A stretch of DNA of 64,000 bases. It comes from an uncultured Clostridia bacterium. Lineage in GTDB: Bacteria > Bacillota > Clostridia > Oscillospirales > Ruminococcaceae. Of this stretch, positions 8,439 through 25,397 are shown piece after piece (positions within the stretch are counted from its first letter, which is position 1; each line of letters begins with the position of its first letter). Location of the stretch: contig CANRJB010000009.1 in assembly GCA_947630845.1 (NCBI GenBank), positions 1-64,000 on the forward strand. The letters are read 5' to 3'. The notes beneath the pieces are model-generated. The model ran no database searches. It was not told the DNA's origin and saw only the letters and a program-made list of their open reading frames with translations. The translations under genes and the position numbers were made by a program.

Positions 8439-8975
8439 ATGAAAGCAACAGGCATTGTCAGACGAATTGATGACCTCGGCAGGGTCGTCATCCCCAAGGA
8501 GATCCGCCGCACCATGCGGATCAGGGAGGGCGACCCCCTCGAGATCTACACAAGCAGCGATGGCGAAGTGATCTTCAAGAAATACTCTGCCATTGGTGAG
8601 CTGAGTGAAAATGCCAATCAGGTCGCTGACATCATGCATAAACTTGCCGGATGTCCGGTGGTGGTGTTTGACAGAGATCACGTGGTGGCAACTTCGGGCG
8701 TGACAAAGCGTGAGTTTCAGGAGCGACGTGTCTCGCCGGAACTCGAAGAACTGATGGAGACACGCAGACAGTATTTTGCGGAGGACAGCGAGCATATGCT
8801 CCATCCGGTCGAGGGAATGGAGCAGACCTCGCTTGCAGCGATGCCGATTCTGTCGGCAGGGGACGTGACCGGAGCGGTGACGTTCCTGTCGAACGGCAGC
8901 AAACAGACCGTATCGGAACTGCAAAAATCTCTGGTGAATGCAGCGGCACAGTTTCTCGGCAGACAGGTGGAATAA
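8439..8975 (+). CDS. spoVT: stage V sporulation protein T (AbrB N-terminus + GAF-like C-terminus)
   Basis: MKATGIVRRIDDLGRVVIPKEIRRTMRIREGDPLEIYTSSDGEVIFKKY. Confidence 0.93.
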   Translation: MKATGIVRRIDDLGRVVIPKEIRRTMRIREGDPLEIYTSSDGEVIFKKYSAIGELSENANQVADIMHKLAGCPVVVFDRDHVVATSGVTKREFQERRVSPELEELMETRRQYFAEDSEHMLHPVEGMEQTSLAAMPILSAGDVTGAVTFLSNGSKQTVSELQKSLVNAAAQFLGRQVE

Positions 8976-19598: not shown

Positions 19599-20411
19599 TT
19601 ACTTCTTGGTACTCTTTCTGCCTCTCTTCTTCGGAGCAGCAGTTTCCTCTGCCTTCTTGGCAGCAGGCTTTCTGCCTCTTTTCTTCGGTGCAGCTTCCGC
19701 AGCAGCGGTTTCTTCTGCCTTCTTAGCGGCAGGTTTTCTGCCTCTCTTTTTCGGAGCAGCCGGAGCAGCTTCCACCGGAGCAGCAGCTTCCACCGGAGCA
19801 GTCTCGACCGGAGCAGCAACTTCTGCCGGAGCGGCTTCCACCGGAGCAGTTTCGACCGGTGCAGCTTCTGCCACAACAGTCTCCTCGACTTTCTTAGCAG
19901 GTTCTTCTGCCTTCTTAGCGGTTTCTTCTACCTTCTTGGCAGCAGGTTTTCTGCCTCTTTTCTTCGGAGCAGCTTCCGCAGCAGTCTCTTCTGCCTTCTT
20001 GGCAGCAGGCTTTCTGCCTCTCTTTTTCGGAGCAGCCGGAGCAGCTTCTGCTGCAGTCTTCTTTGTCTCCTTCTTGGCAGCCGTCTTTTTCATCGGGATC
20101 GTGTCGCCGAGTACCAGTGTCTTTTCCCAGTCACCCTCATGAGAGATCTTGCCCTCATTCACAGCATCTTCGAGGGAGACTTTGCCCTGTGCAACAGCAA
20201 GCACATCTGCGCCGTCTGCTGTCAGCAGTGCATCACGGTCATTGTAGTCATAGGGGGCAACATAGAGGACCCCGTCTGCAATTTCCATGTAGAATGCACC
20301 CTGTGCTTCACCGGTCACATTGACCTGTACGGCAACATGTTCCTCTACTTTGGAAGCATCAGCTTTCGCAAGAGCAGTCTGCACTTTTTTTACCAGTTCA
20401 TGATATGTCAT
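19599..20411 (-). CDS. SCP2-like domain fused to an Ala/Lys/Pro-rich H1/AT-hook-like tail
   Basis: MTYHELVKKVQTALAKADASK...AFYMEIADGVLYVAPYDYNDRDALLTADGADVLAVAQGKVSLEDAVNEGKISHEGD; five PKKRGRK(P/S) motifs; RBS gaaaggtg before ATG 20411. Confidence 0.8.
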   Translation of the reverse strand: MTYHELVKKVQTALAKADASKVEEHVAVQVNVTGEAQGAFYMEIADGVLYVAPYDYNDRDALLTADGADVLAVAQGKVSLEDAVNEGKISHEGDWEKTLVLGDTIPMKKTAAKKETKKTAAEAAPAAPKKRGRKPAAKKAEETAAEAAPKKRGRKPAAKKVEETAKKAEEPAKKVEETVVAEAAPVETAPVEAAPAEVAAPVETAPVEAAAPVEAAPAAPKKRGRKPAAKKAEETAAAEAAPKKRGRKPAAKKAEETAAPKKRGRKSTKK

Positions 20412-20729
20412 GTCGATCACCTTTCCTTCATCCGTTTTAGCGGAATGCATAATATAATTTTGCTATGAATATTATACAGGAAATTGCGGATTTCGTCAAT
20501 GAATATTCCGCAATTTCTGCATATCATACAATAAATTGTACTTTATAGCCCTTATTTTTGGGCAAAAGTACGGATTTTACCGGAAAATATTCTGCCTTTT
20601 CATGGAATTTTCCGTCACTGATAAAAGAATGGACAGCAAAAAAAGATTTATACAGCCGGAGTGTTTTTTTTTACGAAAACGTTTTTTGTTGACCTTGAAC
20701 AAAAAAATGAAAAAATGTGAAAAAATCTC

Positions 20730-22295: not shown

Positions 22296-22380
22296 TGTTA
22301 TGCCATATTTTTGCGTTTCTGTTGACTTTACGGAAATTTTGGGGTATAATATCATTGATATGAAGGAAAGGAGGGTCTGC

Positions 22381-23160
22381 ATGATACAGCAGATCAGAGA
22401 ACTTTTTGCCTACAGACAGATGATCATCAGCCTTGTCCGGAAAGATCTGCGTGGACGCTACAAGGGCAGTGTGCTTGGATTCCTGTGGACATTCATCAAT
22501 CCGCTGTTTCAGCTTGTGGTGTATACATTGGTGTTCTCCTTCATTCTGAAAAGCAATATCGACAAATACTATCTCTATCTCTTTGTGGCACTCATCCCGT
22601 GGATTTTCTTTTCTGCCTCCATCACAGGCGGCTCATCAAGCATCATCGCACAGAAAGATCTGGTCAAGAAGATCTACTTCCCCCGGCAGGTCATCCCCAT
22701 TTCCTATGTGACAAGCTGTTTTGTGAACATGCTGCTGTGCTTCCTTGTCATCATGGCAGTGGTGCTGCTGTCAGGCATCCGGCTGCATCCGGTCGGGCTG
22801 CTCTGTCTTCCGGTCATCATGGCAGTGGAATACCTGCTTGCGCTCGGCATGGCACTGCTTGCATCGGCAGTGACCGTGTATTTCAAGGATTTAGAGCATA
22901 TCCTCGGCATTGTCTCCATGGCGTGGATGTACCTCACGCCGATCATGTACGACAAGTCCATTGTCCCCGCAGAGATGCTCCCGTTCTTCAACCTCAATCC
23001 CATGACCCACATCATCGACTGTTACCGTGCTGTGCTGTACAGCGGAGAGGTTCCGCAGCTTGGCTCACTGCTTTCATCTTTTGTGCTGGGGATGTTGTTT
23101 TTGGCGGTGGGATGGATAGTGTTTGCACGGCTGCAAAAGCATTTTGCAGAGGTGCTGTGA
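22381..23160 (+). CDS. ABC-2 type polysaccharide/teichoic acid export permease (Wzm/TagG-like)
   Basis: LVRKDLRGRYKGSVLGFLWTFINPLFQLVVYTLVFSFIL. Confidence 0.93.
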   Translation: MIQQIRELFAYRQMIISLVRKDLRGRYKGSVLGFLWTFINPLFQLVVYTLVFSFILKSNIDKYYLYLFVALIPWIFFSASITGGSSSIIAQKDLVKKIYFPRQVIPISYVTSCFVNMLLCFLVIMAVVLLSGIRLHPVGLLCLPVIMAVEYLLALGMALLASAVTVYFKDLEHILGIVSMAWMYLTPIMYDKSIVPAEMLPFFNLNPMTHIIDCYRAVLYSGEVPQLGSLLSSFVLGMLFLAVGWIVFARLQKHFAEVL

Positions 23161-23176
23161 CCGGATTCTGATACGA

Positions 23177-23211
23177 CCCTGATGAATCTGATGCCTGTCA
23201 GATTATCAGGG
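23177..23211. repeat. palindromic element copy 1 (REP/terminator-like)
   Basis: ccctgatgaatctgatgcctgtcagattatcaggg. Confidence 0.7.
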
Positions 23212-23230
23212 CTTTGTGCCATCCGCAAAT

Positions 23231-23466
23231 TGTCGAATATTGTCGGATAGTGTCGAATATTGTCGGATAGTGTCGTATTTGGATACTGTCGAATATTGTC
23301 GAATGTGAATGTTATCATATTCGAATACTGTCGTATATTGTCGGATAGTGTCGAATAATGTCGAATACTGTCGGATTTGAATGTTATCATATTCGGATAC
23401 TGTCGTATATTGTCGTATAACGTCGAATCATGTCGAATAGTATCGTATTCGGATACTGTCGAATCA
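23231..23466 (+). repeat. array of 18 decamers, consensus TGTCGNATAN, matching the Spo0A box TGTCGAA; 10-bp register
   Basis: Unit starts 23231,41,51,61,71,87,97,23329,39,49,59,69,23401,11,21,31,41,57; 16 exact TGTCGNAT, 8 exact TGTCGAA; 72-bp higher-order repeat. Confidence 0.9.
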
Positions 23467-23490
23467 TAGAAAATGAGGAAAGGAATGCCC

Positions 23491-24456
23491 ATGAAACTTA
23501 TTATTCAGATACCCTGCTTCAACGAGGAGGAAACACTCGGACTTGCCTACAATGACCTGCCCCGGCAGATCGACGGCATTGATACCATCGAATACCTCAT
23601 CATCAACGACGGCAGCACTGATCATACCGTCGAAAAAGCAAGAGAACTCGGTTTTCATCACATCGTCTCCTTCCGCCGCAACAAGGGTCTGGCTATGGGA
23701 TTCATGGCAGGGCTGGACGCTTGTCTGCATCTGGGAGCAGATATCATCGTCAACACCGATGCCGATAATCAGTACTGCGGCGCAGACATTGCAAAGCTTG
23801 TGCGCCCCATCCTTGACGGGAAAGCTGACATCGTCATCGGCGAACGCCCCATTGACCAGACAGAACACTTCTCATGGAAAAAGAAAAAATTCCAGCACAT
23901 CGGCAGTTGGGTGGTGCGTGTGGCATCCAGTACCGACATCCCCGATGCCCCCTCCGGTTTCCGTGCCTATTCAAGAGAAGCCGCACTGCGGATGAATGTC
24001 GTCAATGAGTACACCTATACCCTCGAAACCATCATTCAGGCAGGGCATAACAAAATCGCCATGTCCTCCGTCCCCATCCGCACCAATGCGGAGACTCGCC
24101 CCTCCCGGCTTTTTTCAAGTATGTGGCGATACATGAAGCGTTCTGCTGCCGTCATCATACGGTCATTCGTGATGTACCAGCCGCTGAAATTTTTCACGAT
24201 GCTCGGACTGGTGCTGATCTTGTTCGGGAGCGTGCTTGGGGTGCGGTATCTGATACTGCTGTTTTCCGGCGATGGCGGCGGTCATATCCAGTCGCTGATC
24301 CTGACGGCGATCCTGTTAATGGCAGGATTTCAGACCATCACCATCGGGCTGCTTGGCGACACCATTGCTGCCAACCGCAAGCTCATTGAGGACATGCAGT
24401 ATCGTATCCGCAAGATGGAATGCGGCTCTGCTCACGATGAGGACAAGCGGACATGA
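23491..24456 (+). CDS. GT2 glycosyltransferase with C-terminal TM segments (DPM/polyprenyl-P type)
   Basis: IQIPCFNEEETLGLAYNDLP...IINDGSTD...NTDADNQY. Confidence 0.92.
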   Translation: MKLIIQIPCFNEEETLGLAYNDLPRQIDGIDTIEYLIINDGSTDHTVEKARELGFHHIVSFRRNKGLAMGFMAGLDACLHLGADIIVNTDADNQYCGADIAKLVRPILDGKADIVIGERPIDQTEHFSWKKKKFQHIGSWVVRVASSTDIPDAPSGFRAYSREAALRMNVVNEYTYTLETIIQAGHNKIAMSSVPIRTNAETRPSRLFSSMWRYMKRSAAVIIRSFVMYQPLKFFTMLGLVLILFGSVLGVRYLILLFSGDGGGHIQSLILTAILLMAGFQTITIGLLGDTIAANRKLIEDMQYRIRKMECGSAHDEDKRT

Positions 24457-25397
24457 AAAAAATCCCTGAGCTTGTTCGCATAGCCGGCAATCTGGTCATG
24501 CTCCTTGCACTGGGATTTCTGGTAAAGCGGTTTCTTGGAATGGGACTGCGGTGGACGGATCTCCGGTCATGGGGTGTGATGGGGGCATTTCTGGTGTGCA
24601 TGACCGGGCAGGCGTTTCTGTTCTGCATCCAGTGCATCCCGTGGATGAATTTCACACGCTCACTTTCCGGCGTAAAGATCCCGTTCCGCCGTGCCATGCC
24701 GGTCTACACCCGTTCCAATATCTACAAATATCTGCCCGGCAATGTGTTCCAGTATGTCGGACGCAATCAGCTTGCTGCCGATATGCACATCAGTCATGTG
24801 GATGTGGCATGTGCGACGATTCTGGACATTCTGTTCTGTCTGGTGTGGATGTGTCTGTCAGCGGCAGTTCTGCTCCGGCAGAAGGCAGCGGAATTATTGG
24901 TGCAGTATCTGAACCGTTTCCTCATCATTGGCGGCATCGGTGTGGGGATAGCAGTGGTGGCGTTTGCTGTTTTCTGGCTGAAATTCCGTGACAAACTCAT
25001 TGCCTGTTTCCGGCGTTACAGAAAGGCATTTGCTCCTGAAAACCGGAACGCTCTGCTCTGCGGCATTTTCTATTATCTGCTGCACAGCAGCCTGTTGGCA
25101 GCGATGTATTTTGTCTGCCTGAAGCTCATGTTCCCGGCGGACACGCCGCTCTCCACACTCATCATGCTGACAGGAGCATTTGTGTTTGCATGGATCGTGG
25201 GTTTCATCACACCGGGCGCACCGGGCGGCATCGGCATAAGGGAATCGGTCATGATGCTTGTCAGCGGTGCAGAACATGAGCAGGAAGTGCTGCTGTTTGT
25301 ACTTGTGATGCGTGCAGCATCCGCTGCGGCGGATGTGCTGGCGTTTGCTGCCGGGGCAGTGTATCTGAAATGCAGCGGAGGGAAAAATGAAGAATAG
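24453..25397 (+). CDS. YbhN/UPF0104 lysylphosphatidylglycerol synthase-like membrane protein
   Basis: NIYKYLPGNVFQYVGR; GFITPGAPGGIGIRE. Confidence 0.85.
   Translation: MKKIPELVRIAGNLVMLLALGFLVKRFLGMGLRWTDLRSWGVMGAFLVCMTGQAFLFCIQCIPWMNFTRSLSGVKIPFRRAMPVYTRSNIYKYLPGNVFQYVGRNQLAADMHISHVDVACATILDILFCLVWMCLSAAVLLRQKAAELLVQYLNRFLIIGGIGVGIAVVAFAVFWLKFRDKLIACFRRYRKAFAPENRNALLCGIFYYLLHSSLLAAMYFVCLKLMFPADTPLSTLIMLTGAFVFAWIVGFITPGAPGGIGIRESVMMLVSGAEHEQEVLLFVLVMRAASAAADVLAFAAGAVYLKCSGGKNEE

Follow-up and report, generated by a model that had tools for sequence, protein, structure and literature searches.

An array of 18 Spo0A-box-like decamers in the leader of a family 2 glycosyltransferase gene: a probable Spo0A-family operator in a Ruminococcus-like rumen bacterium

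The stretch of DNA analysed here (64,000 nucleotides in length; hereafter, the window) comes from a Ruminococcus-like rumen bacterium and carries, upstream of a gene for a family 2 glycosyltransferase (GT2), an array of 18 decamers of the form NNTGTCGNAT, all of which lie on the forward strand between positions 23229 and 23466. The features of the locus, including the internal organization of the array, are as follows.

22300-23160, + strand: ABC-2 permease open reading frame, Wzm/KpsM-like (below the NCBIfam cut-off), upstream of the hairpin
23177-23211, + strand: hairpin CCCTGATGAATCTGATGCCTGTCAGATTATCAGGG, located after the permease gene and before the array (z -4.3)
23229-23466, + strand: whole decamer array, 18 units NNTGTCGNAT in five blocks
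23229-23278, + strand: block 1, five units, boxes at 23231, 23241, 23251, 23261 and 23271, followed by the 6-bp divider TTGGAT (23279-23284)
23285-23304, + strand: block 2, two units, boxes at 23287 and 23297
23305-23326, + strand: 22-bp divider GTGAATGTTATCATATTCGAAT, with an imperfect palindrome (12/16) as its core, GAATGTTATCATATTC
23327-23376, + strand: block 3, five units, boxes at 23329, 23339, 23349, 23359 and 23369
23377-23398, + strand: 22-bp divider, second copy, TTGAATGTTATCATATTCGGAT
23399-23448, + strand: block 4, five units, boxes at 23401, 23411, 23421, 23431 and 23441 (two with one mismatch), followed by the 6-bp divider TCGGAT (23449-23454)
23455-23464, + strand: block 5, the final unit ACTGTCGAAT, box start at 23457
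23476-23484, + strand: ribosome-binding site AGGAAAGGA of the GT2 gene
23491-24456, + strand: family 2 glycosyltransferase (PF00535), the presumed target, with its start ATG at 23491
24453-25397, + strand: hydrophobic protein, probably membrane-spanning, overlapping the GT2 stop

The NCBIfam models nearest to the glycosyltransferase, AglJ and PgfS, are of the polyprenyl-phosphate type, with scores below the cut-offs of those models. The hydrophobic protein encoded immediately downstream had no family match in searches of the Pfam and NCBIfam type, and the two genes probably form one transcription unit. The hairpin is likely a terminator and, since it separates the permease gene from the array, we take the array to be the leader of the GT2/membrane-protein unit. 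Sequence resembling this hairpin is found at three other sites of the genome (C11, C20 and C3), as a repeated intergenic palindrome or terminator. Elsewhere in the window, positions 19599-20450 encode a protein whose C-terminal half is made of Lys/Ala/Pro-rich KKRGRKPAAKKAEE repeats, similar to a histone H1-like tail, while a spoVT gene, listed already in the preliminary description of this DNA, lies at about 8439-8975, as judged by sequence motif. Coding on the minus strand was considered and rejected: the 156-residue open reading frame found there has no family match and, since decamer pairs seldom give stops in this direction (18 of 972 unit-pair frames), its being open means little.

Counted strand by strand, the pattern TGTCGNAT has 16 exact matches on the forward strand of the array and none on the reverse strand, with 0.022 matches expected in 236 bp at the rate seen in the rest of the window. 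Eight exact TGTCGAA boxes are present, and two further units with one mismatch each (CGTCGAAT at 23421 and TATCGTAT at 23441) bring the total to 18. The successive steps between unit starts are 10, 10, 10, 10, 16, 10, 32, 10, 10, 10, 10, 32, 10, 10, 10, 10 and 16 bp, i.e. exactly 10 bp in 13 of the 17 cases. Tandem Repeats Finder reports periods of 10, 36 and 72 bp, the last of these in 2.7 copies with 85% matches. In particular, the units are grouped in five blocks (5+2+5+5+1) by dividers of 22 bp (twice) or by 6-bp remnants (twice), the 22-bp divider having the form [GT]TGAATGTTATCATATTCG[AG]AT in both of its copies (23305-23326 and 23377-23398). In these respects the preliminary description was accurate: the numbers of decamers, exact matches and perfect boxes, the 10-bp register with exceptions of 16 and 32 bp, the 72-bp higher-order repeat, and the end of the array about 10 bp before the ribosome-binding site were all recovered as it had given them. 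The unit it had written as TGTCG(A/G/T)ATAN needs some revision, namely, the TGTCG core stands, but the ATAN portion varies, and the constant part is A.TGTCG.AT. Not all of the boxes lie on one face of the helix, a point against the operator reading.

How are the differences between the units distributed? Once the 18 units are aligned in register, 24 minority letters are seen. Of these, 21 fall either at the linker base that precedes the box or at position 6 of the box, two of the ten columns, and such a concentration was never reached in 200,000 uniform draws, with the caveat that a shared duplication history weakens this test. Position 6 is A in 9 of the 18 units and G or T in the other half. 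The columns contacted by Spo0A are kept in 53 of 54 instances (G2 in 17 of 18 units, C4 and G5 in all 18). Namely, it is precisely G2, C4 and G5 that are contacted by Spo0A of C. difficile, where changes at these positions cut affinity about ten-fold (PMC3485338). With variation confined mainly to the linker and position 6, and with the contacted bases kept, the pattern is more like that of an operator than of a drifting minisatellite.

Among the prospects unfavourable to a Spo0A site that the preliminary description had raised are a genome without spo0A and an array scattered over unrelated loci. In the present genome (2.03 Mb in 43 contigs, 92% complete), spo0A is present and the array occurs at a single site, all other pairs with 10-bp spacing found in a genome-wide pattern search being isolated. 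One of these isolated pairs, with a mismatch, lies within the promoter of a further spo0A_C gene (L019/L026), and another lies within a frame which was read by eye as SpoIID-like coding sequence (L150). Turning to the relatives, no array is found upstream of the GT2 homologue in any of 80 of them (within 500 bp, or within the shorter stretch available); in the Ruminococcus GT2 loci inspected, other sequence, mostly coding, reaches to near the GT2 start. Consequently, within these collections the array arose or was kept in this lineage only and, having no ortholog, it could be young and unselected. An order-wide search for runs of four or more boxes, allowing up to one mismatch, found an array in this genome alone among 397. 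The impression of a singleton was overturned once the search was extended to the class with two mismatches allowed, as described below.

Evidence from the genus makes the decamer plausible as a site for the Spo0A family, on account of both its spacing and its presence at spo0A promoters. Namely, among 37 other genomes of the genus, 15 of 42 pairs of TGTCGNAT are 10 bp apart, where 25 spacings were possible. The TTCGACA box is common in spo0A promoters of the genus and, in two genomes (G071 and G073), tandem TGTCGNAT-type decamers are located just upstream of spo0A, adjoining spoIVB. A tandem pair in G025 was discarded as a candidate spoVG promoter site, as it lies on the 3' side of spoVG. In another genome (G013; L034, L037, L039 and L335), several runs of two to five decamers precede TTTTTAAGTTTTTCGCCATATATCGCCAT or a sequence close to it, apparently as a repeated intergenic element.

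Two proteins of this genome are candidates for reading the array. One is a canonical Spo0A with a receiver and a Spo0A_C domain (TIGR02875, 263.8 bits), which keeps the recognition helix of the Spo0A-C/DNA complex 1LQ1 almost unchanged. The other is a paralog of 191 residues (G000:C13:61818-62390; L026, L190) with a Spo0A_C domain and no receiver match. At about one-third identity to the Spo0A_C domain of 1LQ1, its AlphaFold model (mean pLDDT of 85) superimposes on that structure with an rmsd of 1.6 Å and a TM score of 0.88 by target. Seven aligned Spo0A_C proteins all share the motif V-E-R-x-I-R-x-A; the aligned paralogs differ from canonical Spo0A at the residue just before V-E-R (R in the latter) and at that following I-R (H). 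What is more, the promoter of the paralog itself contains TATTCGACA and TAAATCGACA at a distance of 10 bp together with a third box, ATTCGAC, in the same layout as in the closest relative, G013. The isolated DNA-binding domain of Spo0A binds DNA by itself (PMC3485338), so the paralog would, in principle, have no need of phosphorylation. Two smaller contrasts lean towards the paralog, neither of them significantly. Over the usable upstream regions, tandem boxes precede 5 of 13 divergent genes as against 1 of 18 genus spo0A genes (p 0.06, not significant), and, counted likewise, A is found at position 6 in 17 of 21 spo0A-promoter boxes as against 9 of the 18 array units (p 0.09, not significant). 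That said, sequence alone cannot tell canonical Spo0A from the paralog as the reader. Related short or pseudo-receiver Spo0A_C proteins are seen in several Clostridia genomes; one gene encoding a Spo0A_C domain only, of 136 residues (L264; G479:C1:6910-7398), has four in-register decamers, some of them mismatched, some 100 bp ahead of its start.

A class-wide sample of 392 genomes, searched for runs of four or more boxes with two mismatches allowed, yielded such arrays in nine, i.e. this one and eight others, and the reversed control pattern gave none. If a genome is called canonical when its best Spo0A_C E-value is 1e-33 or better, a cut-off that was chosen after seeing the data, the sample divides into 282 canonical genomes, this one among them, 31 divergent ones and 79 without a match. 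Seven of the eight other array genomes have a divergent Spo0A_C only, and the eighth, G730, has none above threshold (E 0.0035 with a relaxed limit). In other words, arrays of at least four boxes occur in 7 of 31 divergent genomes versus 0 of 281 other canonical ones (Fisher 5e-8, with the cut-off being post hoc and the genomes not independent), and the product of the within-family tests over four families is about 0.006. With the requirement set at three boxes, the counts are 9 of 31 divergent and 6 of 281 other canonical genomes. Pfam detects no receiver in 9 of the 10 divergent or paralogous Spo0A_C proteins scanned; in G802, arrays are present together with a receiver-bearing Spo0A. As this genome also encodes a receiver-less Spo0A_C protein, and long arrays in Clostridia go with a divergent Spo0A_C and not with the canonical one, phosphorylated Spo0A may be the wrong reader here.

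Which genes do these other arrays adjoin? We read 20 array regions, 18 of which were scored for the position of the -10 element. Arrays precede comEA, comM and T2SSE/Tad-type genes (L316, L318, L323, L328, L333 and L334; G712, G730, G603, G668 and G726). Specifically, Pfam identifies SLBB and helix-hairpin-helix domains of the ComEA type by the arrays in G712, G730 and, divergently oriented, G668, a Mg-chelatase/ChlI domain of the ComM type in G712, and a T2SSE ATPase in G603 and G726; a PD-(D/E)XK match by the array in G730 is below the cut-off, and the CpaE-like and TadE-like labels (L321, L326, L317 and L327) come from reading by eye, with no match in Pfam. A TATAAT-like hexamer (at least 4/6) starts 22 bp past the last box in 7 of the 18 regions (L319 and L320 being near-duplicates) and 33 bp past it in 6 of the 18 (L329 and L330 being near-duplicates, and L317 having both), with an expectation of about 3% per position. 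Three regions (L318, L331 and L333) fit neither geometry. A competence regulon, defined by runs of TGTCGNA decamers at comEA, comM and T2SSE/Tad genes, is a possible reading of these loci, and the literature we searched on Spo0A in connection with competence, ComEA, the Tad pilus, paralogs and receiver-less homologs describes no such arrays or regulon.

At the locus studied here, the GT2 start codon lies 28 bp past the end of the last box, which makes a -10 element at a spacing of 22 or 33 bp from that box impossible. Searching for a -10 element at the inner units returned weak 4/6 hexamers only, and a consensus promoter scan gave two weak forward-strand candidates inside the array, neither of them convincing. 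With this spacing absent and no convincing promoter found, the direction of control is a guess. Since the geometry of the related arrays is not seen here, cooperative activation is not the favoured mode, while the fact that the array fills the GT2 leader up to about 10 bp before the ribosome-binding site, where bound protein would hinder transcription, makes repression our first choice, ahead of activation and titration as alternatives.

Taking all of this into account, we consider the array quite probably a Spo0A-family operator. A more specific version of this reading, in which the paralog is the main reader and the likely outcome is repression of the GT2/membrane-protein unit, has in our estimation a probability of just under one half. 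Each TGTCG decamer would be occupied by one Spo0A_C domain, in head-to-tail order with a spacing of roughly one helical turn, as seen in the solved Spo0A-C/DNA complex, with the receiver-less paralog as a more likely main reader than canonical Spo0A. With as many as 18 domains bound, any promoter inside the array would be covered or transcription entering it blocked, and the resulting repression would be cooperative and switch-like, to be relieved when the level of the regulator falls. The array with its conservation pattern and uniqueness, the two proteins, the association across genomes and the way in which related arrays are spaced are observations, whereas binding at this site, the identity of the binding protein and the direction of control are inferred. 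Of the proposals made in the preliminary description, which also named a titration site and a copy-number-variable switch, the Spo0A-box reading draws support from the presence of spo0A, the unscattered array and the boxes at spo0A in G071 and G073, but the reader may be the paralog rather than phosphorylated Spo0A; the proposed cooperative operator would be a Spo0A-family operator, with activation not being its favoured mode.

Several other explanations need to be weighed against this one. A classical operator read by phosphorylated canonical Spo0A would tie an envelope glycosyltransferase to the starvation or sporulation signal, and it agrees with the near-unchanged recognition helix of the Spo0A encoded here, the eight perfect boxes and the boxes in spo0A promoters of the genus, be they TTCGACA or the tandem ones of G071 and G073. 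We nevertheless regard it as rather unlikely, given that, in the class sample, none of the 281 other genomes with a canonical Spo0A has an array of four or more boxes, that G or T at position 6 is somewhat more frequent here than in spo0A promoters (p 0.09), and that the modelled spo0A promoter of B. subtilis has just a handful of boxes, 0A1-0A4 (PMC12090719). The array might alternatively be a titration (decoy) site which buffers free Spo0A or the paralog, with any control of GT2 being incidental. Indeed, it brings 18 sites together, and tandem pairs in register are few elsewhere in the genome; however, it sits directly in a gene leader, the related arrays are promoter-proximal with a recurrent geometry for which a decoy has no need, and one copy of 18 sites could titrate a scarce protein only, all of which makes this explanation distinctly improbable.

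A neutral minisatellite, grown from TGTCG-containing sequence and devoid of a regulatory role, would account for the clear history of slippage, with its 72-bp and 36-bp higher-order repeats, and for the missing ortholog in relatives. It is also in line with decamer runs on viral contigs, where TGTCG runs number 13 against 11 for the reversed control and 3 and 3 for scrambled patterns; being about as common as their control, these runs were dropped as a related phenomenon. At L237 and L238, on viral contigs, a TGTCGCA decamer run lies inside a phage gene, in an iteron-like manner. Against a minisatellite speak the crowding of minority letters into two of ten columns, in so far as the shared duplication history leaves that test its force, the coincidence of the conserved bases with those that Spo0A contacts and, in the class genomes, the yield of nine real arrays versus none for the reversed pattern. 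A dispersed minisatellite in particular would be expected at several unrelated loci, where isolated pairs alone are found. On balance, we judge a minisatellite to be improbable. Finally, RemA, the ring-shaped biofilm activator, uses sites with a 10-bp period, and in the epsA region of B. subtilis at least six 7-bp protections are spaced 3 bp apart (PMC8481266). RemA sites are AT-rich and modestly conserved. The likeness lies in the direct repeats of 10-bp period upstream of an envelope polysaccharide operon, with the 18 units here exceeding that minimum of six upstream of an envelope GT2 gene. The TGTCG core, however, is strict, nearly invariant and Spo0A-matching in our case, unlike RemA sites, and a RemA-type operator upstream of an exopolysaccharide gene is accordingly a most improbable description of this locus.

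Among known systems, the 0A-box operators of Spo0A come near to the array. At abrB, tandem 0A boxes lie about one helical turn apart. More generally, the 0A-box operators of B. subtilis spo0A and abrB and of C. difficile spo0A and sigH share with the array the TGTCGAA core, the bases G2, C4 and G5, a cognate protein and the tandem arrangement of boxes. What sets the present array apart is that it has 18 units rather than one to a few, a relaxed position 6 and 72-bp higher-order repeats, that it reaches to the ribosome-binding site, and that a receiver-less Spo0A_C paralog is present in the same genome. The 1LQ1 complex shows a Spo0A_C domain on 0A-box DNA, and both proteins of this genome match that domain; still, the paralog shares only about one-third of its residues with it, and a long run of boxes is seen in no structure. 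The iteron-like TGTCG runs of viral contigs are likewise composed of head-to-tail decamers, some inside phage genes, whereas the neighbours of our array are an ABC permease, GT2 and a membrane-type protein, with no phage or replication gene among them, in contrast to phage and plasmid iterons.

A broader picture, which we put forward tentatively, is that receiver-less or pseudo-receiver Spo0A_C proteins are recurrent regulators in Clostridia which read runs of TGTCGNA. In genomes that have lost canonical Spo0A or carry a divergent one, they may run comEA, comM and T2SSE ATPase genes, i.e. those for DNA uptake and the Tad pilus, from arrays placed 22 or 33 bp before the -10 element; in the present bacterium, in which canonical spo0A is kept, such a paralog may have gained an operator of 18 boxes at the gene of an envelope glycosyltransferase. 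If this is true, Spo0A would not be a sporulation switch only, and its DNA-binding half would, in Clostridia, have repeatedly been freed from phosphorylation and retained as a regulator in its own right. The regulators freed in such a way would have recognisable and countable operators, which would offer a sequence handle on the control of competence in anaerobes, for which the literature we searched describes no such regulator. Moreover, they would provide a natural system for studying how the number of operators sets cooperativity, with the 18-box array as an extreme case that is small enough for direct testing.
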